Shown here: one piece after another, positions 38,901-52,584 of the stretch | Layout of the letters: each line of letters starts with the position of its first letter | Position numbering within the stretch: position 1 is the stretch's first letter | Source of the DNA: Phycisphaerales bacterium | Lineage (GTDB): Bacteria; Planctomycetota; Phycisphaerae; Phycisphaerales; SM1A02 | Assembly: GCA_022446885.1 (NCBI GenBank) | Contig: JAKVBU010000006.1 | Location: 186,001-250,000, forward strand | DNA: 64,000 bases | Direction: 5' to 3' | Made by a program: the position numbers and the translations under genes | Notes under the pieces: model-generated | Database searches by the model: none | Told to the model about the DNA's origin: nothing | Seen by the model: only the letters and a program-made list of their open reading frames with translations

Positions 38901-40898
38901 TCAGGCCGCGTCAGGGACGACCGGCGGCATGGGCACGGCGAGCATCTCGGCCACCGCTCTGACCATCTCCGCCTCGGCGATCGTGGTTTGGCCGTCGTGC
39001 TGCACCGCGGCCACCAACGCCTCGAGCAGCCGACCTCGCTCACAGAATCGCAGCGTTCGCAGGTCGTGCACCGCATCGTTGAGCTGCGAGAGGGTCACCG
39101 CGGGAACAGAGGCGGGTGCTTGAATCTTCAACATGGCACTGGCCCGCTGCAGCGCCGCCAGCGCCTCCCCGTCATCCGTGTGTCCGGCACGAACCGTTAC
39201 GGCCAGCACTGTCTGCGTTGCCCCACTCACGGAGCTGATGGAGGCCACCGGCCGGTGAGACGCATCGCCGCCACGATCGAGCGCTGTGTCGATCAACATC
39301 GCTGCTACCCACTCGAATCGCGACACAGCCCCATCGGCCATCACAACCCGTTCCACGAGCTGTCGCAACTCGGATCCCTGCGTCACGGACAGTCGTGACA
39401 AGGCTGGCGAGGCCAGATCCAGCAGGGGCACGCGACATCGTTCGTCCAGATGTGCGAAGTGTGGCAGCAGCACCTGGATCTTCTGTTTCGCCATGGGAGC
39501 GGCTGCTTCGAGTTGGTCGAGTTGCTTGTCGATGAACGCGTCTCCCCCGCCCTGCTCATGCAGCAGCATCGCCAGCACCAGCGCTGGCACCTGATCCGGG
39601 GCGTGGGCCGCCGTTGCCAACCGCTCGGGAATACTCGACATCATCTGTCGAGTCCAGGCGACATCTACGTTTGCAACCTGCCCGATGCTGCCCAGAGAGT
39701 CGGCCATGGCCGCGGCCGTCACTGCGCCGATCATGTGCCCCATACCTCCACCGGTTGCGGCGCGGCGAACACTCTGGCCACTATCCCAGCGGCTGCTGGC
39801 CTCCTCGGCGGTCAGCTTGGGCTTGAGTTCACCGATCTGATCTACAGGGATGTTCTCAATGCGGGCGATTCGAATGGGCAGCGGCGGATGCGAGTCGAAC
39901 ATTGACGGCATGGCCTGATTGAAGAACATGTGGTTGAACTGGCTGGTCTCGGTCGCCAGTTTGGTCTTGGCGTCGGCAAGCCCGCCGATGCGACGCAGTG
40001 CCCCAGCGATGCCGTCGGGGTTGCGGGTGTACTGCACGGCACTGGCATCGGCCAAGAACTCACGCTGCCTGGATACGGCTGCCTGAATCAATCGGGCTAC
40101 AAGCGTGCCCGCGAACCCGATCACGCACAGCAGAAAGCCCAGCAACATCACACCAAGAGCAACAGGTAGAGCGTTGTTCCCCTTGCCATTGGAACTACTG
40201 CGGCCGCCGCTGCTGAACAAGAGCGCGTAGCCCACATAGCGCCAGAGGATGTAGCCTGTGATCCCCAGTGCCATCACGCCGGAGATCACCGACACCAACT
40301 TGATGTTCAGTCGCATGTCGCCATTGAAGATGTGGCTGAACTCGTGGGCCACCACACCCTGCAGCTCATCGCGGGTGAGGTTGGCCACGCATCCCTCGGT
40401 CAGACCGATCACCGCCTGATCAACACTGTGCCCGGCGGCGAAGGCATTGATGGCGTCGCTGGGCATCATGTAGACCGGGGGCACTGGCATGCCCGAAGCG
40501 ATCGCCATTTCTTCAACCACATTGAGCGCCTTGCGCTCGCTGGGATCGCGAGTGTCCAGGTCTATCAGGCGACCGCCCAGCATCTCAGCGACGTAATCGC
40601 CGCCCTTTCGCATTTGCAGCCACCGATACAGGTAACCGCCACCGACGATGATGACCATGAATCCGAACACGACAAAGGCGACACGTGGGTCCCACCACTG
40701 TGTCTCCTGCTCAACCCATCTGGAGACATCGCCGCGCGCATCTTCCTGGCGCAGATATCCACCGGTCAGGTGAACGATCAGCATGACGGCGGCATACACA
40801 GCCACGGTCATCGCGACCAAGCCCGTGATGAGCATGGCCACAAGACGACCGGTCTTGCGGTGCGCCTGATCCTGTGCGGCGAAGAAGTCCACGGTCAA
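38901..40898 (-). CDS. M48-family membrane metalloprotease (HtpX-like) with C-terminal extension
   Basis: 665 aa, twice the length of HtpX. Two N-terminal TM helices, then ALNVVEEMAIASGMPVPPVY and the zinc motif in VVAHEFSHIFNGD, with the third ligand Glu in QREFLADASAV. Two more TM helices flank residues ~200-290. The C-terminal ~250 residues are helical with a TerB-like look (LVERVVMADGAVSRFE, VQHDGQTTIAEAEMVRAVAE). LemA lies immediately upstream, as in many bacteria. The start is TTG 40898 or GTG 40892; no ATG fits. Confidence 0.9.
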   Translation of the reverse strand: MTVDFFAAQDQAHRKTGRLVAMLITGLVAMTVAVYAAVMLIVHLTGGYLRQEDARGDVSRWVEQETQWWDPRVAFVVFGFMVIIVGGGYLYRWLQMRKGGDYVAEMLGGRLIDLDTRDPSERKALNVVEEMAIASGMPVPPVYMMPSDAINAFAAGHSVDQAVIGLTEGCVANLTRDELQGVVAHEFSHIFNGDMRLNIKLVSVISGVMALGITGYILWRYVGYALLFSSGGRSSSNGKGNNALPVALGVMLLGFLLCVIGFAGTLVARLIQAAVSRQREFLADASAVQYTRNPDGIAGALRRIGGLADAKTKLATETSQFNHMFFNQAMPSMFDSHPPLPIRIARIENIPVDQIGELKPKLTAEEASSRWDSGQSVRRAATGGGMGHMIGAVTAAAMADSLGSIGQVANVDVAWTRQMMSSIPERLATAAHAPDQVPALVLAMLLHEQGGGDAFIDKQLDQLEAAAPMAKQKIQVLLPHFAHLDERCRVPLLDLASPALSRLSVTQGSELRQLVERVVMADGAVSRFEWVAAMLIDTALDRGGDASHRPVASISSVSGATQTVLAVTVRAGHTDDGEALAALQRASAMLKIQAPASVPAVTLSQLNDAVHDLRTLRFCERGRLLEALVAAVQHDGQTTIAEAEMVRAVAEMLAVPMPPVVPDAA

Positions 40899-40906
40899 TC
40901 AGGCCA

Positions 40907-41530
40907 TCAAGCGCCGAAATCCACCTTGGGGGCGGCCTTTACTTCAGCACTCTCAACTTCCCACATGGCGGACGCGGCGAAGTTGAACATGCCCGCGATG
41001 ATGCTCGAAGGAAACTGCTCACGGCCGTTGTTGTAGTGCATGACCGAGTCGTTGTAGGCCTGACGAGAGAACGCGACCTTGTTCTCGGTCGTCGTGAGCT
41101 CTTCCTGTACCTGCATCATGTTCTGGTTGGCCTTGAGATCAGGATAGGCCTCAGCCACCATCATCAACTTGCCCAGAACGCCAGTCAGACCGGCTTCGGC
41201 GCCAGCGAGGGCCTTCATGTTGGCGGCGTTCGTCGGGTCGGCGCCCATGGCCTGAGCGGCGGAGTGGGCCATGTTGCGAGCTTGTGTCACGGCTTCGAGC
41301 GTGTCCGCCTCGTGCTTCATGTATCCCTTGGCCGTCTCGACGAGATTTGGAATCAGGTCATATCGGCGCTGCAGTTGTACGTCGATCTGGGCCCAGGCGT
41401 TCTTCACCCGATTGCGCAACGACACCAAGCCGTTGTACATGCCGATGACCCAAATGATGAGCAGGAGTACGACGACGCCGATGACGATGCCGACGATGGC
41501 TCCAGTAGACAGAGCGAGTAGAGATGTCAT
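40907..41530 (-). CDS. lemA: LemA family protein
   Basis: 207 aa, one N-terminal TM helix (GIVIGVVVLLLIIWVIGMYNGLV) and a helical-bundle domain. Characteristic VKNAWAQIDVQLQRRYDLIPNLVETAKGY-type start (shown here as VQLQRRYDLIPNLVE). Function is not settled; LemA often accompanies M48 or TPM-domain membrane proteins. Start ATG 41530 follows a GAAGGG Shine-Dalgarno; an upstream frame to 41572 lacks similarity. The M48 gene starts 8 nt after its stop. Confidence 0.93.
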   Translation of the reverse strand: MTSLLALSTGAIVGIVIGVVVLLLIIWVIGMYNGLVSLRNRVKNAWAQIDVQLQRRYDLIPNLVETAKGYMKHEADTLEAVTQARNMAHSAAQAMGADPTNAANMKALAGAEAGLTGVLGKLMMVAEAYPDLKANQNMMQVQEELTTTENKVAFSRQAYNDSVMHYNNGREQFPSSIIAGMFNFAASAMWEVESAEVKAAPKVDFGA

Positions 41531-41558
41531 TGAATTGATCCCTTCCAAAGTAGTGATT

Positions 41559-43682
41559 TCATTGTGCGACACTCACGACCGATCCGGTCGTTGTCACGCA
41601 GAGTCTTGCCCCGGGCAAACCGGTGGGCTCAGCGACGATGCAGTGTTCGCCATCAGTGCCTTTCATCGCGCCGCCGCCAACGATCAGGTATCGGGCATCA
41701 TCGTGCCCCGGCACCGTCAGTTCATGCCGCGTGATGTGCCCGCTGCGGACAAGGTCTCGAAGACTCTTGATGGTCTTGTCCTCAGCATGTGCCAAGTGCA
41801 TCGCCGTGCCGATGGTCTTCAGCCGCTGGATGCGCTTCTCATCGGCCGGATGGCTGGGGGCCCTGTGGTCTGCATGTTGAGCCTGCTCGGCGGCAAACCG
41901 AACTGCGCGTACCTGCGCCGCCTGCTGGGCGGCCTCTCGAGCTTTGATGGCAGCCTCATATGACTGCACCCCTGCCACCGCAGCAACGGGAATGACGATT
42001 GGTGCGAGTGCCACGAGTTGCCCGAGCCCAGCCGACATCTGTGCGACCATCGACCTGTCGGCGTTTCCCGTAACCGTGATCGCGGTACCGTCCATCCGTG
42101 CGATGCACAGGCCGGAACGCACATCTCCCGTCAATCCTGCAAACGGAGGCACTGCATTCGGTGCCACCTGGTCAGCCTTGTGCACAGGCCGTGTGTAATT
42201 GTCGATTGCCGCACCGATCATGGCCGCGAGCCAGTAGCCCTCTCTGGCTCGCAGACGCTCATCGAGATACTGCACCTGCACAGCACCCACACCCTTCACG
42301 CCACCGGCATGCTGGAAGCCAACGGCATCAAGAATCGAGTCCTTGGCGTCAAACTGAGCAATCGCTGCCGCGACCGACTGTGGGAACAGCCCGGCAACAA
42401 GCCAACCGTCAGCCACTGCGATAGTGGGCTCCAGTGGCAAGGGAATACCCGGGAACCGGAGCGAGACAGCACGCTGAGCGCCGTGCATGTCTACGTCGAG
42501 CATCCGTACATACCCACTGGTCTCGGCGGCCGCGATGCGGTCAAGCGCGGCGCTGATCTTGCCAAAGGTGTCCGCCATCTTGGAGGCGTCTTTGAGACTC
42601 ACCATGCACACGGCCGACAGCACACCATTGCCGCCAGTTTCCTCAGACAGGTAGCAGGTGAATGCGTCGCCCATGGGCGCGAGAAGATCGGCGTGGATGT
42701 CGATCCCCAGCATCGCCTCAGCCATCGCCTTGCCCTGTTTCGCCATTTGCTGATCGCGGTCTGACGATGCCGCGGTCAAGGACTCGATCAACCCAGACAG
42801 ATATGTCGCCAGATCGAGCCGTGTGCACTGGACACAAGCTGCGCTGCGAGGCACTCGCTTGAGCTGATCTTGAGTTACGCCGCCTGCCGGAATGATGTAC
42901 CCGAAGTGCTTGCCATAGTTCTCTACCCGGCCAGCCAGATGCACCGACTCGTCTGTACCACCTACCGCAAAGACACACCGCAGTGCATCCTGCCCGGTCA
43001 ATCCCCACGACTTGAGAATCGCTGCTTCCGCTGGGCTAACTGATGCCTCCTTCTCGAGCATCGGACTGAGTGCATCGAAGTTCACCCGCAGGCCGCCGAG
43101 CAATGTGGTGCCTGCCGGAAGGCCGGCATCTGCGAACGAATCTCGATCATGCACCGGCGGGTGAGGCGCAGACAGATAGAACGTGCCCTCTTCGGCGCCG
43201 GCCCAGGCCATGTTGCCTGATGTGCCTGTTTCAAACTTGGTGAGGCCGGGGTGACTGGGATCCGGGCCTACCAGCTGTAAGCCAAAATCATGCGCGATCG
43301 GCTGCATGCGCCGCAGCATGCTCTCGCCTCCAAATCCCCGCACACCTTGAGATGCAAACTGCACGAAGGCAGGCACGCCGGGGGTGTCGGGGGGCAGAAT
43401 GTCCAATTCAAACGACGTCTCGCCAAGAATGAACGGCATCACCCAGTCCATCTTCATGCGATCGTCATTGGATGTGCCTGGCGGCAGTGTCAGACCGTTG
43501 ATGATCAACCGCCGCAGCGCCTCACGCATGCCCGCATCACGCGAGTCGGCAAGCCACCCATCAATGCCTGATGAGTAGATTGAGATGAACCGCTCACTCG
43601 AAGGCTCGGCCTGCGCCTGCACGCCGAAGCCTGCCCAAGAAAGCACAAGGCCCGCACAGACTGCTGTTCCATTCTTCCTCAT
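41559..43682 (-). CDS. Large secreted hypothetical protein
   Basis: 707 aa, family not recognised. Signal peptide NGTAVCAGLVLSWAGFGVQA. Two halves with alternating beta/alpha character follow, then a short Ala-rich helix (AAIKAREAAQQAAQVRA, residues ~570-590) and a C-terminal domain with RYLIVGGGAMKGTDGEHCIV. A CVQC motif sits near residue 285. ATG 43682 overlaps the stop of the SpoIIE phosphatase gene by 1 nt (TGATG), so it is translationally coupled to it and may be its partner. Confidence 0.7.
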   Translation of the reverse strand: MRKNGTAVCAGLVLSWAGFGVQAQAEPSSERFISIYSSGIDGWLADSRDAGMREALRRLIINGLTLPPGTSNDDRMKMDWVMPFILGETSFELDILPPDTPGVPAFVQFASQGVRGFGGESMLRRMQPIAHDFGLQLVGPDPSHPGLTKFETGTSGNMAWAGAEEGTFYLSAPHPPVHDRDSFADAGLPAGTTLLGGLRVNFDALSPMLEKEASVSPAEAAILKSWGLTGQDALRCVFAVGGTDESVHLAGRVENYGKHFGYIIPAGGVTQDQLKRVPRSAACVQCTRLDLATYLSGLIESLTAASSDRDQQMAKQGKAMAEAMLGIDIHADLLAPMGDAFTCYLSEETGGNGVLSAVCMVSLKDASKMADTFGKISAALDRIAAAETSGYVRMLDVDMHGAQRAVSLRFPGIPLPLEPTIAVADGWLVAGLFPQSVAAAIAQFDAKDSILDAVGFQHAGGVKGVGAVQVQYLDERLRAREGYWLAAMIGAAIDNYTRPVHKADQVAPNAVPPFAGLTGDVRSGLCIARMDGTAITVTGNADRSMVAQMSAGLGQLVALAPIVIPVAAVAGVQSYEAAIKAREAAQQAAQVRAVRFAAEQAQHADHRAPSHPADEKRIQRLKTIGTAMHLAHAEDKTIKSLRDLVRSGHITRHELTVPGHDDARYLIVGGGAMKGTDGEHCIVAEPTGLPGARLCVTTTGSVVSVAQ

Positions 43683-45544
43683 CACTCCTGCTCCTCCTTC
43701 GTCGGCACTGGAGGCCGCATCTCAGATCCTAACGGACCCAACCAACGCAACGCCACCACGGTCAAATCGTCGGCCAACACACCATCCTGATGCGATTTGG
43801 CCAACCCGATCGTGTTTGCGCACAGGTCGGAAGCGGTGTCCTGCTCAAGCCCTTTCTCCAAGCCTTCCTGCCCGAGCATCTCCCCCTGGGCATCCATCGC
43901 CTCAGTAATCCCATCGGTATAGATGACGATTGATGCACCGGGGTCCAAAACGCCTTCCCTGATCGACCACTGTCCGTCGGGCATGATGCCTAGAAGCGGA
44001 CCGGTGGGATCCCCTTCAGCGCGGGCACCGTCTGCGTCGACCAGCATCGCTCTCGGGTGCCCCGCATTCACGATGCGATACACACCTGTCTGCACATCAA
44101 GTTGCAGCATGATCGCCGTGATGAACATCTGGCGAGGGTTGTTTTCAGCGAGTGACTGATCGACGGAAGAGGCCAACTCATCAATGTCAACTCCCTTGGC
44201 TGCCGCATCTCGAAGCACTCGACGCGCCATGGCCATGACGAGCGCCGGACCGATGCCGTGCCCGGACACATCGGCGACCACCACCGTCAGTGTGTCTCCC
44301 TGCATCCACCAGTCATAGAAATCTCCCGCCACTTGATCCGCCGGCTGCAGCACAGCATGCAGATCGAACTCCGCCCGATCGTGAAATGGCTCGGTCTCTG
44401 TTGGAAGCATCGACTGCTGAATCTCGCGTGCAACTTGCAACTCCCGCTCAATCGCCTGCCGTCGCCCTGCCTCCTCAGCAATCTGGTCCAAGGTCTCGCG
44501 TAGACGTGAGGTCATGGCATTGAATCCAGCGGCCAGTGCGCCTACTTCGTCGGTACCCAAGTCTGGCACTGTGGCACCGAGATCGCCGCCGGACACTTGG
44601 CTGACGCCTGTTGACAACTGCCGAATTCTCCCGGCCATACGCAAGCCTGCCCGCAGCAGAATCGCCAACACAATGATCGCTCCGACTGACAACAACAGGC
44701 CGTTGAACAGCAGCTGTCGGTCAACCGATGCGAACACTTCATGGGCGCCGATTTCAACATCGAATGTCCAGCCCAGCGTGGGCAGTTTCGCAGACTTCTC
44801 GATGTGATCCTCACCCGGGTCGTGCGCACCCTCAGGGAGTGGCGTCTTGATCTTGTCCCCATCGGCTGTCGTCAGACTCGGAATGACATCTTCAAAGCCA
44901 TTCACATCAAGTTGCTTGAACAACTCCGTCATGCCGATGTCGACAACCACCCACCCCTTCACGCCGTCTTCTGAAATGAATCGGGTTGTGTAGGAGACGA
45001 TTTCCTTCCCCACGACTTCTCCGTAGAACGGATCGGTCCACTGGCCGGGGCCCGGCTTCAAGTTCGGCAGATACCACGGTGTGTTCTTTGTGATGTCGAA
45101 CTTTGCCGCAATGTCGGCCATCTTGATCTTGCCGTCATGCAGATAGACATAGCCCGCCTGCTGGACCTCTGGTGGCGCATGACCGATGTCGAAGGCAACA
45201 GCAATGCCAACGACCAGTTGAAGTCGCTCGACCAGTTCAGAGCTGAGAATCGGACTCGACGACCATGTCACACCACCCAGTGAGAGCGCATCGGCGAGCG
45301 TGTCGGCGGCTCCTGCAGCGGTCGAGAGCTCGCTGTCGAGCAATTGTGCCGTTTGCTGGGCCAGCAGCCGGGCCCGTTCCATTGCATTTGCGGAAGCTGA
45401 TCGACGCAACGCCACCGTCTCGATGGTGATCAGTACAACGAATGTCAGAACAACCGGAAGGCCGACAAATACGAGTAGCCTCAGACGAAGAGACACGTCA
45501 GCCTTCGCCACGCGCTGCAGCGTCGGCCACCAGAATCGCGTCAT
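43682..45544 (-). CDS. Membrane sensor with HAMP and SpoIIE/PP2C phosphatase domain (RsbU-like)
   Basis: 620 aa. TM1 (residues ~22-42), a periplasmic sensor of Cache type (~45-280, with WYLPNLKPGPGQWTDPFYGE), TM2 (~285-310), HAMP, a short coiled coil ending EIQQSMLPTE, and a SpoIIE-type serine phosphatase with VAGDFYDW, VVADVSGHGIGPAL and DGITEA. Such proteins dephosphorylate anti-sigma-factor antagonists; no such partner is in the window. ATG 45544 overlaps pgl by 47 nt. GTG 45496, just after the pgl stop and behind GAAGG, is a good alternative start. Confidence 0.9.
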   Translation of the reverse strand: MTRFWWPTLQRVAKADVSLRLRLLVFVGLPVVLTFVVLITIETVALRRSASANAMERARLLAQQTAQLLDSELSTAAGAADTLADALSLGGVTWSSSPILSSELVERLQLVVGIAVAFDIGHAPPEVQQAGYVYLHDGKIKMADIAAKFDITKNTPWYLPNLKPGPGQWTDPFYGEVVGKEIVSYTTRFISEDGVKGWVVVDIGMTELFKQLDVNGFEDVIPSLTTADGDKIKTPLPEGAHDPGEDHIEKSAKLPTLGWTFDVEIGAHEVFASVDRQLLFNGLLLSVGAIIVLAILLRAGLRMAGRIRQLSTGVSQVSGGDLGATVPDLGTDEVGALAAGFNAMTSRLRETLDQIAEEAGRRQAIERELQVAREIQQSMLPTETEPFHDRAEFDLHAVLQPADQVAGDFYDWWMQGDTLTVVVADVSGHGIGPALVMAMARRVLRDAAAKGVDIDELASSVDQSLAENNPRQMFITAIMLQLDVQTGVYRIVNAGHPRAMLVDADGARAEGDPTGPLLGIMPDGQWSIREGVLDPGASIVIYTDGITEAMDAQGEMLGQEGLEKGLEQDTASDLCANTIGLAKSHQDGVLADDLTVVALRWLGPLGSEMRPPVPTKEEQE

Positions 45545-46199
45545 CTGGATCAACGTGACCGGCGGGAATACTCAGGTCCCCATCAAGCAGTTTGCGTACG
45601 GCGTCCTGCTTTGACTCACCGATCACATACCAAACGATCGTGCCTGCGCGATTCAGCGCGCCTCGAGTGAGCGTCATTCGGCGGTGTCCGTTGAATGGGC
45701 CGCTGGTTGTGCCCACATCTTCGACAGTCAGATCACACACCGGGTCGCCAGGAGCCAGAGATGCCGTGTGGCCATCGTCGCCAAGCCCCAGTTGAATGAC
45801 ATCAATCTGCCCATCAGGGCGTAGCGATCGAATCTGCTTCTGGTACTCGCGACCGGCACCGAAGAGGTCGTCGGTAGTGACCGGCATGGGCCAAGCGTGA
45901 TCTTCAGAGATCAGGCCGCTGTCAAGGAAGATGCGCTTGATGGCCGTCCAGTTCCGATCAGCGTCGCCATCGGGCGCAACACGCTCATCAACCTGAAGCA
46001 GGTGCACCTTGTTCCACTCGACGACCGAGTCCTTGGCCAGTTGCTCAAGCATCGGCCATGGGGTCGTGCCGCCACTCACCGCAAAGGTCGCTTCGCCCTT
46101 GGCGATGATCGCTCGGCGGAGCAGGTCCGAAAGCACCTGCGCCCCGCGAATGGCTGCGGATGCTTCATTTGGAACAACTTGGACTCGTAGTGCAGTCAT
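45498..46199 (-). CDS. pgl: 6-phosphogluconolactonase
   Basis: 233 aa; second step of the oxidative pentose phosphate pathway. The NagB/RpiA-like fold shows FAVSGGTTPWPMLEQL, LLQVDERVAPDGDADRN, and GLGDDGHTASLAPG, all typical of DevB/Pgl. ATG 46199 lies 11 nt after the zwf stop; GTG 46214 overlaps that stop (GTGA) and is also possible. Position between zwf and a phosphatase gene supports co-expression. Confidence 0.93.
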   Translation of the reverse strand: MTALRVQVVPNEASAAIRGAQVLSDLLRRAIIAKGEATFAVSGGTTPWPMLEQLAKDSVVEWNKVHLLQVDERVAPDGDADRNWTAIKRIFLDSGLISEDHAWPMPVTTDDLFGAGREYQKQIRSLRPDGQIDVIQLGLGDDGHTASLAPGDPVCDLTVEDVGTTSGPFNGHRRMTLTRGALNRAGTIVWYVIGESKQDAVRKLLDGDLSIPAGHVDPDDAILVADAAARGEG

Positions 46200-46210
46200 G
46201 GGGAAAGTCG

Positions 46211-47602
46211 TCACAGTCTCTCAGGCGAGAGCGGATCATGCCATCTGCCAAAGCCCTTGATCAGGCCGTCGGCCTCAGAGGGCCCCCAGGACCCCTTGGG
46301 GTAGTCGAATATCGGCGTCCCAGCGGCCAGTACCGGGTCAACGACCTGCCAAGTGCTCTCAACCTCATCGACCCGAGCGAACAGGCCCGAGTCGCCGGAC
46401 AGCGCATCGCCGATCAGCCGATCGTATGCCTCGAGTTCCTCGGGCTCCTGATGCAGTGCGATCATCTCGATCTGCTCTCCAACCATCTCCTCACCGCCCT
46501 TCTTGGCGCTGGCGCCGATCGCGATGAGTGTTGATGGCTTGAGTTGGAATCGGAAGTAGTTGCGGGAGGGGCCGCCCTCTGCCGCAAAGAGCCGCTGCGG
46601 CGGCTTGTGCATGGACACAAGCACCTCGGTAGCTGTCACTGGCAGATGTTTGCCGACTCGAATGAAGAAGGGCACGCCCGCCCACCGCCATGAGTCGATG
46701 TTGATCCGAATTGCGGCGTACGTCTCAGTGGTAGAGCCCTGGGCTACTCCCGGCTCGTTCTTGAATCCCTCATACCTGCCACGCACGACATCGTCTACCT
46801 GCAGCGGAAGCATCGATCGGAACAGCCGGACCTTTGCGTCTCGCAGTGACTCATCATCAGCCGCTGCTGGTGGATCCATTGCCAACAGAGCCACGGCCTG
46901 CATCATGTGATTCTGAACGACATCCCGGATCGCCCCGGCTTCGTCATAGAAACCTCCACGCCCCTCGACACCGAAATCCTCGGCCATGGTGATCTGAATC
47001 GCTCGCACATGCTCGCGATTCCAGATGGGTTCAAGAAACCGATTGGCGAATCGGAAGTACTGCAGATTCAGCAACGCTTCCTTGCCCAGATAGTGGTCGA
47101 TGCGGTAGATCCGGTCTTCGGGAAACACCCGGTGCAGCACCTTGTTCAGCGCTTGAGCTGACTGCAGATCGCGTCCGAATGGCTTCTCCACCACCACCGA
47201 TGCGCCCTCTGCACAGCCGGAGGCCTTGAGTTCTTCCACGACCGATTCAAAGACGCTGGGCGGAATGGCGAGGTAGTACAGGGGCCGCTTCCTGCTGCCC
47301 AACTTCTCTCGCAGCCCAGCGAAGCAGTCTTTCTGGCTGTAGTCAACCATGCAGTGGTGCAGCCGCTGGGCAAGGCGATCAAAGATGGCATCGTCCAACT
47401 CGCCACCGAATCGCTCAATGCCGTCACGAGCACGCGATCGAATCGCCTCGTCAGACATTGCATCGCGGCTGATGCCCACGACAGGCACGTTGAGCGCCCC
47501 ACGCTTCTCCATGTCGTACAACGACGGGAAGATCTTCCGGTGGGCCAGATCACCCGTTGCGCCAAAGAGCACAAGAACATCAGACTCCCTTTGTTCGCTC
47601 AA
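46211..47602 (-). CDS. zwf: Glucose-6-phosphate 1-dehydrogenase
   Basis: 463 aa; oxidises glucose 6-phosphate with NADP(+). The coenzyme site is VLFGATGDLAHRKIFPSLY, and the substrate-binding active site RIDHYLGKEALLN is intact. IRVGKHLP and VVEKPFGRD are further family marks. The start is TTG 47602, whose TTGA overlaps the gnd stop and follows an AGAGGC Shine-Dalgarno; no near ATG is in frame. Confidence 0.96.
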   Translation of the reverse strand: MSEQRESDVLVLFGATGDLAHRKIFPSLYDMEKRGALNVPVVGISRDAMSDEAIRSRARDGIERFGGELDDAIFDRLAQRLHHCMVDYSQKDCFAGLREKLGSRKRPLYYLAIPPSVFESVVEELKASGCAEGASVVVEKPFGRDLQSAQALNKVLHRVFPEDRIYRIDHYLGKEALLNLQYFRFANRFLEPIWNREHVRAIQITMAEDFGVEGRGGFYDEAGAIRDVVQNHMMQAVALLAMDPPAAADDESLRDAKVRLFRSMLPLQVDDVVRGRYEGFKNEPGVAQGSTTETYAAIRINIDSWRWAGVPFFIRVGKHLPVTATEVLVSMHKPPQRLFAAEGGPSRNYFRFQLKPSTLIAIGASAKKGGEEMVGEQIEMIALHQEPEELEAYDRLIGDALSGDSGLFARVDEVESTWQVVDPVLAAGTPIFDYPKGSWGPSEADGLIKGFGRWHDPLSPERL

Positions 47603-48630
47603 GCGCCCGCCTCTTTCTCATGATGGCCGCCAAACTGAAACCGCATGGCCGAAAGCACCTTGTCGGCGAACATGGCCTCGCCCCGGGAACTGAATCGCTG
47701 GAAGAGCGCCGCTCCAAGAACGGGCGCAGGCGCCGAGACATCGATGCCGGCCTCGAGTGTCCATCGCCCCTCGCCCGAGTCAGATACGCGGCCTTCGAAA
47801 CCGCCAAGTGCCGGATCATCACGCAGGGAGAGGGCCGTGAGGTCGAGCAGCCAAGAAGAGATCACGCTGCCCCGACGCCAGACTTCAGTGATGCCCGCGA
47901 GATCAAGGTCGTACTGGTAATGCTCGGGATTGCGAAGCGGCGACGTTTCAGCGTCTTGTTCCCGCCCTGCGGTTCCGGCATCAGCGTGGTGAAGAATGTT
48001 CAGCCCCTCGGCATAGGCCGCCATCAGGCCGTACTCGATGCCGTTGTGCACCATCTTCACGAAATGACCCGCGCCATGGCGTTCGCCGCAGTGCAGCCAC
48101 CCTTGCTCTGCCGGGCCTGGTGCACCTGATGCCCCCGGCGTTCGAGGGGCCGCCTCAACGCCAGGCGCCAGCGTCTCGAAGATCGGAGACAGATACTCGA
48201 CCGCATCTCGCTGGCCTCCGATCATCTGGCAGTACCCCCGCTCGGCCCCCCAGACACCACCGCTCACGCCAACGTCGAGATACCTAATCCCCGCTGACTC
48301 CAGGCGTTCGCCCCGAGTGATGTCGTCTTGCCAACAAGAGTTTCCGCCATCGATCAAGACATCACCGGCCTGAAGCAGCGGTTCGAATCTGGCAATGGTG
48401 TCATCCACGAATGCTGCAGGCACCATGAGCCAGACAACCACCCGGCCCTCCTGGGCACGAAGGTGCTCAACCATGGCCTCGGGTGTGTCTGCTGGGTGGG
48501 CGCCATCGGAAGCGAGCGCTGCAACCGCTTCAGCAGAGACATCCCAAGCCGTGACCGCATGGCCAGCGTTCATGATGCGGCGCGACATGTTCGCGCCCAT
48601 CCGTCCCAGCCCCACCATTCCAATGTGCAT
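47599..48630 (-). CDS. gnd: 6-phosphogluconate dehydrogenase, short form
   Basis: 343 aa; decarboxylates 6-phosphogluconate to ribulose 5-phosphate. N-terminal MHIGMVGLGRMGANMSRR Rossmann motif, substrate loop VLIDGGNSCWQDD, and catalytic HFVKMVHNGIEYG. It belongs to the short (decarboxylating, often NAD-preferring) class, lacking the long C-terminal repeat of ~470-aa enzymes. GAGGAG precedes ATG 48630, and the gene lies 15 nt after the rpiB-tal fusion. Confidence 0.94.
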   Translation of the reverse strand: MHIGMVGLGRMGANMSRRIMNAGHAVTAWDVSAEAVAALASDGAHPADTPEAMVEHLRAQEGRVVVWLMVPAAFVDDTIARFEPLLQAGDVLIDGGNSCWQDDITRGERLESAGIRYLDVGVSGGVWGAERGYCQMIGGQRDAVEYLSPIFETLAPGVEAAPRTPGASGAPGPAEQGWLHCGERHGAGHFVKMVHNGIEYGLMAAYAEGLNILHHADAGTAGREQDAETSPLRNPEHYQYDLDLAGITEVWRRGSVISSWLLDLTALSLRDDPALGGFEGRVSDSGEGRWTLEAGIDVSAPAPVLGAALFQRFSSRGEAMFADKVLSAMRFQFGGHHEKEAGA

Positions 48631-48645: not shown

Positions 48646-50199
48646 TCAGGCCGACTGCAGCGAGGCCGTCTTCTCGGCGATCGCTTCCAGCAGTGCGTCC
48701 CAAGACTTCACAAATGCTGCGGCGCCCTCTTCCTGCAGTTGAGCGGCGAGCGCCTTGAGATCGACGCCGGATGCTTCTGCCGATGCCAACACGGCATCAG
48801 CCTGCGCCCACTGCGTTTCACCCAGAAGATCACCGACCGTACCGTGATCGGCGAAGGCCAGCAGCGTAGCCTCGGGAATCGTGTCAACCGTTCCCTCTGC
48901 AGCCAGCGCCTCCACGTACATGGTGTCCCTCAGGGCTGGATCCTTGGTGCTTGTGCTGGCCATGAGCACCTTCTGTTCGTGCGCACCTGCTGCAGCGAGT
49001 GTCTCCCAGCGAGGTCCACTGAAGATGTCCTTCGAGGCCTGATGGCACTTGACCGTCGCTGCGATACCGACCTTGAACCGGGCATCTTCACCGACGACTT
49101 CATGAGTCGGCGTGTCCCATCTTGAGACAAAGATCGATGCCACTGAGGCCACGTCAAGCGACAACCCCTCAGCATGGCGGCGTTCGAGCCCTCGAACATA
49201 GGCTTCTGCGGCAGCTCGATACTGGCATTCGTCAAACAGCAACGTCACATTCACGTTGACGCCGCGGTAAATCAACGCCTCAATAGCCTCCGGGCCGGCA
49301 GGCGTGCCCGGCACCTTGATCATGAGGTTTGGCCGATCAGCCTGTGCATACAGCGACAAACCTTGCTCGATGGTTCCCTTGGCGTCCATCGCCAACCCCG
49401 GAGACACTTCCAGCGAGACGAATCCGTCGGTGTGGCCGGAGACGTCCCAGGCTGTACGAAGAATGTCGGCCGCCCGCGTGAGGTCGCTGATCGCAAGCGC
49501 GAAAGCGAACGTCTCCGGATCGCCATCGGGGTTGGAGGCATGCAGTTGCGCCAACTGGTCGTCGTACAGATCGCTGCCCTCGACTGCCTTCTGCAGAATT
49601 GACGGATTCGAAGTCAGCCCCGTTACAGCCAGATCGCTGGTGTATCGCGCCAGTGTGCCGTCGTCGAGGATGCTACGACTGATGTAGTCGAGCCAGATGG
49701 CCTGGCCCGCGTCGTGCAGTTGCTGACAGGGATTCATCGTGCGATGCCTTTCGATGCGTATGAGATGTGCCAGCCGCCGCCGGTGACGTTCCTGCCCGCT
49801 GAATCGGGCCTCTAGGAAGGCGACTGCAAGTTCGTGTGCAACCTCGATGCCGATGACCCGAGCCCCCAACGTGAGGACATTCGCGGCGTCATGCTCGACC
49901 ATCTGGTGTGCCGTGTAGGTGTCGTGAGCGGTGGCCGCCCGAATCCCGGGAAAACGATTCGCGGCCATGGACATGCCGGCCCCGGACCCGCACAGCAGGA
50001 TGCCATGCGTTGCTCTTCCGGCGCCGATCTCCCGACACAGATCGCCTGCCACACAGGGGAAGTCAACCGACTCACCGGAGTCGGGGCCCACACCTCGGGC
50101 GTCCCATCCCAGGGCACGGAGCTGATCGATCAAGGCGTTGCGCATGCCCAATGCCGCGTGATCCGCAGCCAGAACGACGGTGGTCGAGGAGGGTGTCAT
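48646..50199 (-). CDS. Ribose-5-phosphate isomerase B / transaldolase fusion
   Basis: 517 aa in a single frame. Residues 1-~150 are RpiB: AADHAALGMRNALI, the Cys-containing LLCGSGAGMSMAANRFPGIR, and HDAANVLTLGARVIG. Residues ~155-517 are a full-length transaldolase of the ~360-aa mycobacterial type: AIWLDYISR, TGLTSNPSIL, and the Schiff-base Lys in NLMIKVPGT. No stop separates them. An internal ATG at 49737 with GAAAGG upstream is where a free-standing tal would begin, so both a fusion and separate Tal could be made. Start ATG 50199; TACGAT lies 9 nt upstream. Long in-frame sequence above 50199 is antisense to the kinase gene. Confidence 0.88.
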   Translation of the reverse strand: MTPSSTTVVLAADHAALGMRNALIDQLRALGWDARGVGPDSGESVDFPCVAGDLCREIGAGRATHGILLCGSGAGMSMAANRFPGIRAATAHDTYTAHQMVEHDAANVLTLGARVIGIEVAHELAVAFLEARFSGQERHRRRLAHLIRIERHRTMNPCQQLHDAGQAIWLDYISRSILDDGTLARYTSDLAVTGLTSNPSILQKAVEGSDLYDDQLAQLHASNPDGDPETFAFALAISDLTRAADILRTAWDVSGHTDGFVSLEVSPGLAMDAKGTIEQGLSLYAQADRPNLMIKVPGTPAGPEAIEALIYRGVNVNVTLLFDECQYRAAAEAYVRGLERRHAEGLSLDVASVASIFVSRWDTPTHEVVGEDARFKVGIAATVKCHQASKDIFSGPRWETLAAAGAHEQKVLMASTSTKDPALRDTMYVEALAAEGTVDTIPEATLLAFADHGTVGDLLGETQWAQADAVLASAEASGVDLKALAAQLQEEGAAAFVKSWDALLEAIAEKTASLQSA

Positions 50200-50257: not shown

Positions 50258-50950
50258 ATGGGCGATTCAACTGAGCACAGAACACTTGTCATCGACGTCG
50301 GCGGCACCAATCTCAAGGTGCTGGCCGAAGGCGCAGCTGACCGCATCAAGATCAAATCTGGCCGGTCGCTGGGCCCCACAGACATGGTGGAAAAGGTGCA
50401 GTCGGCCTGCAAAGAGCAGGGATGGACATGGAACAGGGTCTCCATGGGCTTTCCAGCCCCCGTGGTTGGCGGGCGAGTGCTCACCGATCCCAGCAATCTG
50501 GGTGACGGGTGGCAGGGGTTCGATTTTGCCTCAGCGTTCAACTGCCCCGTTCGGATCATCAACGACGCCGCCATGCAGGCCCTCGGCTCATGGCACGGTG
50601 GTGGCATGATGTTCCTCGGGCTCGGCACGGGTCTGGGCGCAGCTTGGGTGGAGAATGGGCGCGTCGAGCCGGTCGAGTTGGGCCATATGCCTTGGGATGA
50701 CACCCACACTTGGGAGGATCTGGCTGGTAAAGCCGGCCTCAAGCGCCTCGGCTTTGATGCTTGGAAGGCGCATCTCTGGGCCATGATCGACCGCCTGACC
50801 CAGTCCATCGATCCGGACTATTTCGTGCTTGGGGGGGGCAATGTGAAGAAGCTCGATGAACTCCCTCCTCGGTGTGAGCGTGGCGACAACCGCAACGCCT
50901 TTACAGGTGGTTTTCGGATGTGGGCACCCGACGAGGCGGCCGAGCGGTGA
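50258..50950 (+). CDS. ppgK: ROK-family kinase, polyphosphate glucokinase-like
   Basis: 230 aa, short for ROK kinases and close to PPGK. Phosphate-binding VIDVGGTNLKVLAEG at residues ~12-25, GFPAPVVGGRV, and the catalytic Asp in IINDAAMQALG. LGLGTGLGAA and VELGH follow. The ROK zinc motif CxCGxxGCxE is missing, as in PPGKs. Phosphorylates glucose from polyphosphate and/or ATP; the donor cannot be told from sequence. Its stop overlaps the pgi GTG (GTGA). Confidence 0.85.
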   Translation: MGDSTEHRTLVIDVGGTNLKVLAEGAADRIKIKSGRSLGPTDMVEKVQSACKEQGWTWNRVSMGFPAPVVGGRVLTDPSNLGDGWQGFDFASAFNCPVRIINDAAMQALGSWHGGGMMFLGLGTGLGAAWVENGRVEPVELGHMPWDDTHTWEDLAGKAGLKRLGFDAWKAHLWAMIDRLTQSIDPDYFVLGGGNVKKLDELPPRCERGDNRNAFTGGFRMWAPDEAAER

Positions 50951-52584
50951 CCACAATCGACCAGGCCTGGTCTGCATTGAGTGCCCACGCGGAGGCGCTT
51001 CAAGATGTCCATTTGCGGCACTTGTTCGACCGTGAGCCCGAGAGATTCCAACGCCGAAGGGCCCAAGTGGGTGAGCTGTTTATCGACTGCTCCAAGCATC
51101 TGGCGACTGAAGAAACCGATGCCTTGCTCTGTGATCTGGCTCGCGCTGCAGATGTTGAAGGCCGCCGAGACGCCATGTTTGCCGGTGAGCACATCAACGT
51201 CAGCGAAGGGCGGGCTGTTGGGCACGTGGCCCTGCGCAATCAGACAGATCAGCCGTTCATGATCGACGGCACCGACGTCATGCCGAGTGTTCGCAGAGAA
51301 CTCGATCGCATGCGTGCGTTCTGTGCAAGCATTCACGATGGCACATGGACCGGGCACAGTGGAAAGAAGATCACGGATGTCGTCAACATCGGCATCGGCG
51401 GCAGTGATCTGGGGCCGGTCATGGTGACTGAGGCACTTCGGCCCTTTGCCCGACCCGATCTGGCCTGCCACTTCGTCTCCAACGTTGACCCAGCACACAT
51501 TTGCGACACTCTGGCCAACCTTGATCCAGAGACAACCCTATTCATTGTGGCCAGCAAGACGTTCGGCACCCTTGAAACCCTCACCAATGCTCGCGTGGCC
51601 CGACGGTGGTTGTTGGACACGGTGGGATCAGAAGAGGCTGTTGCCCGCCACTTTGTCGCCCTGTCAACGAATGTCGAACGAGTTACCCAGTTCGGCATCG
51701 ATCCAGACAACATGTTTGTCTTCTGGGATTGGGTGGGCGGGCGGTATTCGCTGTGGTCGGCAATCGGGCTGTCGATCGCGCTGGCCGTGGGCTTCGATCG
51801 ATTCGAGGCGCTTCTTGAGGGAGCGCATGAGATGGACGAGCACTTCCGCAACACCCCTCTGGAATCGAATGTTCCCATTCGACTCGGGCTGCTCGACTGC
51901 TGGTACCGCAATTGCCACGACATGCAGTCGATCGCCGTTCTGCCATACGACCAGCACCTGCACCGCCTGCCCGCATATTTGCAGCAGGCGATGATGGAAA
52001 GCAACGGCAAGCACGTGAACCTGCACGGCCAGCGTGTGAGCCAAGCGACCTCTCCAGTGCTCTGGGGAGAGCCGGGTACCAACGGTCAGCACGCGTTTCA
52101 TCAGATGCTGCATCAAGGCACAACTCGAGTGCCGTGCGACTTCATCGTGGCCATGGAAAGCCACACGAGTCTCGGTGAACAACACCTCGATCTGGTCGCC
52201 AACTGCATCGCCCAGTCGGAAGCCATGATGCGTGGTCGCACTGACAGTGAGGTTCGTGAAGAACTCGCCGCGATGGGTATGGCCGTAGACCAGATCGATG
52301 CCATTGCCCCACACAAGGTGATGGAAGGCAATCGGCCATCTACCACAATGCTGTACCCCCGCCTGACACCTCACATGCTGGGCATGCTCATCGCCCTGTA
52401 TGAGCATCGAATCTTCACTGCCGCTGCAGTCTGGGGCATTGATGCCTTCGACCAATGGGGTGTCGAGTTGGGCAAGTCACTGGCCGTTTCGATACGACCG
52501 ATGCTGAGCGCTGACGAGTCGCCATCCGATCGAGATGCGTCAACGATCGGGTTGATCGAACTGGTCCGCCAGCATGCCCACTGA
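50947..52584 (+). CDS. pgi: Glucose-6-phosphate isomerase
   Basis: 545 aa; interconverts glucose 6-phosphate and fructose 6-phosphate. The family signatures DWVGGRYSLWSAIGL and GEPGTNGQHAFHQMLHQGT are intact, as are GIGGSDLGPVM and ASKTFGTLET. Start is GTG 50947 overlapping the kinase stop; the longer frame to 50920 adds only 9 unrelated residues. It overlaps the debranching enzyme by 11 nt at its 3' end. Confidence 0.97.
   Translation: MTTIDQAWSALSAHAEALQDVHLRHLFDREPERFQRRRAQVGELFIDCSKHLATEETDALLCDLARAADVEGRRDAMFAGEHINVSEGRAVGHVALRNQTDQPFMIDGTDVMPSVRRELDRMRAFCASIHDGTWTGHSGKKITDVVNIGIGGSDLGPVMVTEALRPFARPDLACHFVSNVDPAHICDTLANLDPETTLFIVASKTFGTLETLTNARVARRWLLDTVGSEEAVARHFVALSTNVERVTQFGIDPDNMFVFWDWVGGRYSLWSAIGLSIALAVGFDRFEALLEGAHEMDEHFRNTPLESNVPIRLGLLDCWYRNCHDMQSIAVLPYDQHLHRLPAYLQQAMMESNGKHVNLHGQRVSQATSPVLWGEPGTNGQHAFHQMLHQGTTRVPCDFIVAMESHTSLGEQHLDLVANCIAQSEAMMRGRTDSEVREELAAMGMAVDQIDAIAPHKVMEGNRPSTTMLYPRLTPHMLGMLIALYEHRIFTAAAVWGIDAFDQWGVELGKSLAVSIRPMLSADESPSDRDASTIGLIELVRQHAH

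Follow-up and report, generated by a model that had tools for sequence, protein, structure and literature searches.

In the 64,000-nucleotide stretch of a Phycisphaerales genome analysed here (the window), one gene on the minus strand at 48646–50199 encodes an RpiB domain and a transaldolase (Tal) domain in a single frame. The gene, rpiB::tal, heads an operon for the pentose phosphate pathway. We put the probability at about 75% that it specifies a bifunctional ribose-5-phosphate isomerase B (RpiB)/Tal, the only such enzymes found in the genome, and that both the fusion and a free Tal are most likely translated from its mRNA.

The fusion gene and its two domains

The reading frame of rpiB::tal starts with an ATG at 50199, and its TGA stop ends at 48646, giving 517 codons without an internal stop and a predicted product of 517 amino acids (about 55 kDa). 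The first-pass annotation, which reported a single-frame RpiB–transaldolase fusion here, had the coordinates right but left the strand unstated; the plus strand of this interval contains several stops. The frame stays open upstream to 50808, and homology starts only at about residue 7.

The RpiB domain (residues 8–145; 49765–50178, minus strand) was recognized by Pfam LacAB_rpiB (PF02502) over profile positions 1–137 of 138, with an E-value of 4e-42 and 143.8 bits against a curated cut-off of 24.7, and by PDB RpiB chains in sequence and fold searches. It also exceeds the cut-off of PRK05571 (151.2 bits against 135) and falls under those of the narrower equivalogs TIGR01120 and TIGR02133. In an alignment of the Phycisphaerales and Brocadiaceae fusions (A1), D13-H14, C70-G-S72, H103, R138 and R142 are invariant. 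Four of these, C70, H103, R138 and R142, were aligned to solved RpiBs and correspond to the catalytic residues Cys66, His99, Arg133 and Arg137 of the E. coli enzyme.

The transaldolase domain (residues 168–507; 48679–49698, minus strand) covers the whole TAL_FSA profile (PF00923, positions 1–285 of 285) with an E-value of 7e-72 and 242.7 bits against a cut-off of 27, and passes the cut-offs of both PRK03343 (401.9 against 367) and TIGR00876 (243.9 against 233.75). D171, N198, E264 and the Schiff-base K295 are conserved in A1. K295, D171 and E264 are invariant there, were aligned to solved transaldolases, and correspond to the Schiff-base Lys132 and the acid/base residues Asp17 and Glu96 of TalB. 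Both domains of the fusion are thus complete, as the first-pass annotation had it, with their catalytic residues kept, and the product is predicted from its sequence to have both catalytic activities. The transaldolase of Neisseria carries a Lys-Cys (NOS) redox switch, which we considered for the window enzyme as well. Residue 193 of the fusion (49621–49623, minus strand) is a threonine at the aligned position of the Neisseria Cys38, and the switch is therefore not expected.

The AlphaFold2 model of the fusion has a mean pLDDT of 92.6 and a pTM of 0.91. In the model, a junction of about four residues connects the last RpiB helix (residues 137–152) with the first Tal helix (residues 157–163). 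The Tal half best matches the Neisseria gonorrhoeae transaldolase 3clm in the PDB (Z 51, 41% identity), and the RpiB half matches RpiB structures with Z up to 25 and identity up to 40%. No solved structure covering both domains was present among the 50 best matches of either fold search.

Occurrence, operon and origin of the fusion

Sixteen genomes, including that of the window, carry this single-frame fusion. They belong to four genera of one Phycisphaerales family, and the 15 relatives are 52–78% identical to the window protein. Relatives that encode only separate proteins, the outcome named in the first-pass annotation as speaking against a fusion, are therefore not what we observed. Genome searches returned one RpiB and one Tal in each of the 16 genomes and RpiA in none of them, while the RpiA search did match controls such as E. 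coli. On these counts, taken from draft MAGs with a completeness of 84–99%, the fusion probably serves these genomes as their one R5P isomerase and their one transaldolase. In most of the family's other genomes with search matches, the two enzymes are encoded apart, by genes that lie on different contigs wherever both are listed. Neither enzyme was detected in four drafts of close relatives from fusion-carrying genera (G001, G533, G536 and G538), which may reflect assembly gaps or a true loss, possibly of the non-oxidative branch. A search of viral contigs returned no close relative of the fusion.

As the first gene, rpiB::tal is followed on the minus strand by gnd (6-phosphogluconate dehydrogenase, 47599–48630), zwf (glucose-6-phosphate dehydrogenase, 46211–47602, overlapping the end of gnd) and pgl (6-phosphogluconolactonase, 45498–46214, overlapping the end of zwf), all three assigned by profile matches and synteny, with short or overlapping gene junctions throughout. 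Divergent from the operon, on the plus strand, lie a ROK-family gene resembling glucokinase or polyphosphate-glucose phosphotransferase (50258–50950, by profile matches), whose listed ORF begins at 50180 and whose first ATG ahead of the conserved region is at 50258, and a separate canonical phosphoglucose isomerase gene, pgi (50920–52584; PF00342, E = 3e-211). Those fused relatives that were examined share this gene order, both in the operon and in the divergent glk-pgi pair; at two loci (L082 and L083), about 2 kb of spacer precedes the glucokinase-like gene. By these assignments, the genes of the locus together account for glucose phosphorylation and the oxidative branch and contribute two of the non-oxidative steps. 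A possible regulator is encoded immediately downstream of pgl (43682–45553, minus strand), a sensor-like protein that combines PDC, HAMP and SpoIIE phosphatase domains. Beyond it, 38901–43685 (minus strand) encodes an M48 peptidase of 665 amino acids, a small membrane-like protein and a 708-residue protein with no Pfam match; in G002 and G036, frames with N-termini resembling those of these proteins lie close to the fusion.

The first-pass annotation did not recognize RpiB-Tal as a known combination. We found the pair, however, inside single RpiB-Tal-PGI proteins of Brocadia and Jettenia (anammox bacteria), Flexilinea, Leptolinea and a MAG labelled Nitrospirae. Like the window fusion, these proteins carry RpiB and then Tal in one frame, but they are about 1,100 residues long and end in a phosphoglucose isomerase (PGI) domain of another family. 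A Pfam search found no match to PF00342 in the window protein, and the Phycisphaerales form is the only one without a PGI domain among those found. The window protein is also distinct from the bifunctional transaldolase/phosphoglucose isomerase (NF007080, PRK09533), which has a homologous Tal half together with PGI and no RpiB; it scores 368.9 bits against the PRK09533 cut-off of 712.

The Phycisphaerales fusions cluster together in the domain trees, while those of the Brocadiaceae lie nearest to Acidobacteria and those of the Anaerolineaceae nearest to other Chloroflexota, placing the RpiB-Tal-PGI proteins apart from the Phycisphaerales fusions in origin. These three placements indicate that the RpiB-Tal fusion probably arose at least three times; the trees that separate the Brocadia from the Phycisphaerales fusions support the clade of fused Tal domains modestly (0.55) and the RpiB clade at 0.996. 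Loci at which rpiB, tal and pgi are neighbours, in many cases along with gnd and zwf, are common across Chloroflexota, Acidobacteriota and some other phyla, and such operons hold rpiB, tal(-pgi), gnd and zwf side by side as in the window, with rpiB and tal as separate genes. At 26 of 63 loci among L085–L156, in a sample biased by search ranking to same-frame cases, nothing but the rpiB stop codon parts the two open frames, which share one register, and losing that codon would fuse the pair.

Two further observations concern the larger fusions. In the Leptolinea proteins (L138:1000-2124 and L147:4454-5545), Tal has lost the Schiff-base lysine (NILIGIPA and NLMISVPA against NLMIKVPG) along with other active-site residues, and this middle domain is possibly a dead-enzyme spacer or has an altered function. 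Just upstream of the RpiB-Tal-PGI gene in a relative of the Brocadia/Jettenia group, a short frame (L059:4570-4950) encodes only the N-terminal part of a transketolase; either a leftover of the gene or a frameshift in it may account for this.

A conserved start codon at the domain junction

Within the window gene, the junction reads ATC GAA AGG CAT CGC ACG ATG AAT CCC. The in-frame ATG is codon 155 (49735–49737, minus strand), and the Shine-Dalgarno-like GAAAGG spans codons 150–151 (49747–49752, minus strand), leaving a gap of 9 nt. Initiation at this ATG would give a free Tal of 363 amino acids (roughly 39 kDa) with the N-terminal peptide MNPCQQLHDAGQAIWLDYISR, or the same without Met. The first-pass annotation had already suggested free Tal as a possible product of the internal ATG at 49737 with GAAAGG, a suggestion now supported by the conservation of codons.

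Codon 151 (Arg151) is AGG in 14 of 14 fusions from three genera, and codon 155 is ATG in 12 of them and GTG in two, whereas the codons in between vary. Met155 is thus replaced only by a GTG-coded valine, which is still a start codon. In both genes of the fourth genus, g304, codon 151 is CGC and codon 155 is AAT, both elements being missing together. On the protein tree, Arg151 underwent no codon change among the 14 genes, compared with a mean of 5.83 (sd 1.58) over 115 invariant columns that are at least 4-fold degenerate, the next lowest column having two. AGG makes up 6.3% of the remaining arginine codons, and the sole other column with three or more AGG falls, in genus g306, within the Shine-Dalgarno region ahead of the main start, which is a built-in positive control. 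Of 499 in-frame positions, codon 155 is the only one at which a start codon with a Shine-Dalgarno-like motif occurs in all 14 genes. This is also where most of the family's standalone tal genes that were examined have their start, 14 residues before WLD/WID. The absence of codon changes at Arg151, together with the identity of codon 155 with the usual start of free tal in the family, points to selection on internal initiation, which appears to maintain a free Tal of 363 amino acids; this pattern comes from 14 genes of only three genera. The fusion of g304 lacks the internal start, indicating that free Tal is not indispensable. The case for the internal start is built on conservation and not on the strength of the Shine-Dalgarno pairing: the duplex in the window gene has an energy of -2.6 kcal/mol, close to the gene-wide mean of -2.58, and with so weak a site a low yield of free Tal is expected.

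We weighed this reading against a plain bifunctional fusion with a single 55-kDa product, in which AGG and ATG/GTG would have been kept for the protein sequence, for mRNA structure or by chance. Such a gene would fit the weak Shine-Dalgarno motif of the window gene and the g304 fusion without an internal start, as well as the Brocadia, Jettenia, Flexilinea and Leptolinea fusions, which, unlike the window gene, have neither Met nor Val at the start position. However, the conservation of AGG151 is unmatched by any comparable codon in the gene, AGG151 is missing exactly where the start codon is missing, and changes at Met155 among the 14 genes lead to GTG-coded valine, which can still start translation. 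We therefore regard a lone 55-kDa product as unlikely, if still the most serious competitor.

Considerably less probable is that the gene mostly gives two proteins, by cleavage of the linker or by translation mainly from the internal start, with the fusion itself having no role. An internal start apparently under selection would suit this arrangement, but in 16 of 16 genes the RpiB frame continues into Tal in the same register with no stop, though a stop would cost nothing; moreover, the same pair was fused at least three times, and in the predicted structure both domains are placed confidently with a short linker. Finally, the source is a draft assembly of 108 contigs, in which a lost stop or an indel might have created the fusion. 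Its recurrence in 16 genomes of four genera excludes chance or assembly error, and we give an artefact almost no credence.

Proposed products and their meaning

The reading that we favor is the fusion together with a free Tal from the same gene. The fusion would have come from joining two genes that neighbour each other in many bacteria, and a ribosome-binding site with ATG or GTG would have been retained at the domain junction in three of the four fusion-carrying genera. One mRNA would then most likely be translated into the full-length two-enzyme protein and a free transaldolase. Enzymes of the RpiB family interconvert ribulose-5-phosphate and ribose-5-phosphate, and those of the Tal family move a three-carbon unit between sedoheptulose-7-phosphate and glyceraldehyde-3-phosphate; the two halves of the full-length chain would carry out these respective reactions. 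Transketolase stands between R5P and the transaldolase substrates. Because the two reactions are not consecutive, we did not adopt substrate channelling between the RpiB and Tal sites, the coupling of pentose isomerisation with C3 transfer put forward in the first-pass annotation.

The fusion would fix the synthesis of RpiB and Tal at one to one, and the internal start would shift the balance towards Tal. Free Tal could raise the amount of transaldolase above that of isomerase, or complete an oligomer that has an RpiB dimer at its core. We tentatively propose, at somewhat less than even odds, that a fixed mix of RpiB-Tal and free Tal from one mRNA co-assembles through the oligomer contacts of the domains, and that the internal start thereby sets the cell-wide ratio of isomerase to transaldolase.

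Neither the fusion of pathway enzymes nor the in-frame internal start is a new kind of thing, and the RpiB-Tal pair also exists inside the larger fusions of other phyla. The G6PD::6PGL fusion described for Giardia, Trichomonas and Plasmodium (PMC10819308) likewise joins two pathway enzymes in one chain, but with other enzymes, in another pathway branch and in eukaryotes. In bacteria, pairs of N-terminal proteoforms arise from in-frame internal starts (PMC11005335), giving two products from one gene through a second in-frame start as proposed for rpiB::tal; unlike in those pairs, the short form of rpiB::tal would be a whole enzyme freed from a fusion and is predicted from conservation only. We found no paper on an RpiB-transaldolase fusion in the open-access literature, though an earlier description elsewhere is possible, and the covered passages of a survey of archaeal fusions (PMC11237513) and of a survey of carbohydrate cassettes (PMC5702140) do not mention RpiB-Tal. 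What is new, as far as the searched literature shows, is the two-domain form, its apparent status as the sole enzyme of both kinds, and the conservation of the internal start.

If our reading is correct, rpiB::tal is a fused enzyme gene in which selection preserves both the fusion and a start site that un-fuses it, and annotation by the longest frame can miss such a second product. The conserved internal start would offer a clean natural experiment, with the sister genus that lacks the signal as its control. That the same two neighbours were fused independently in three or more lineages suggests a benefit from linking them. With no other R5P isomerase or transaldolase found in these genomes, the fusion should be central to growth.
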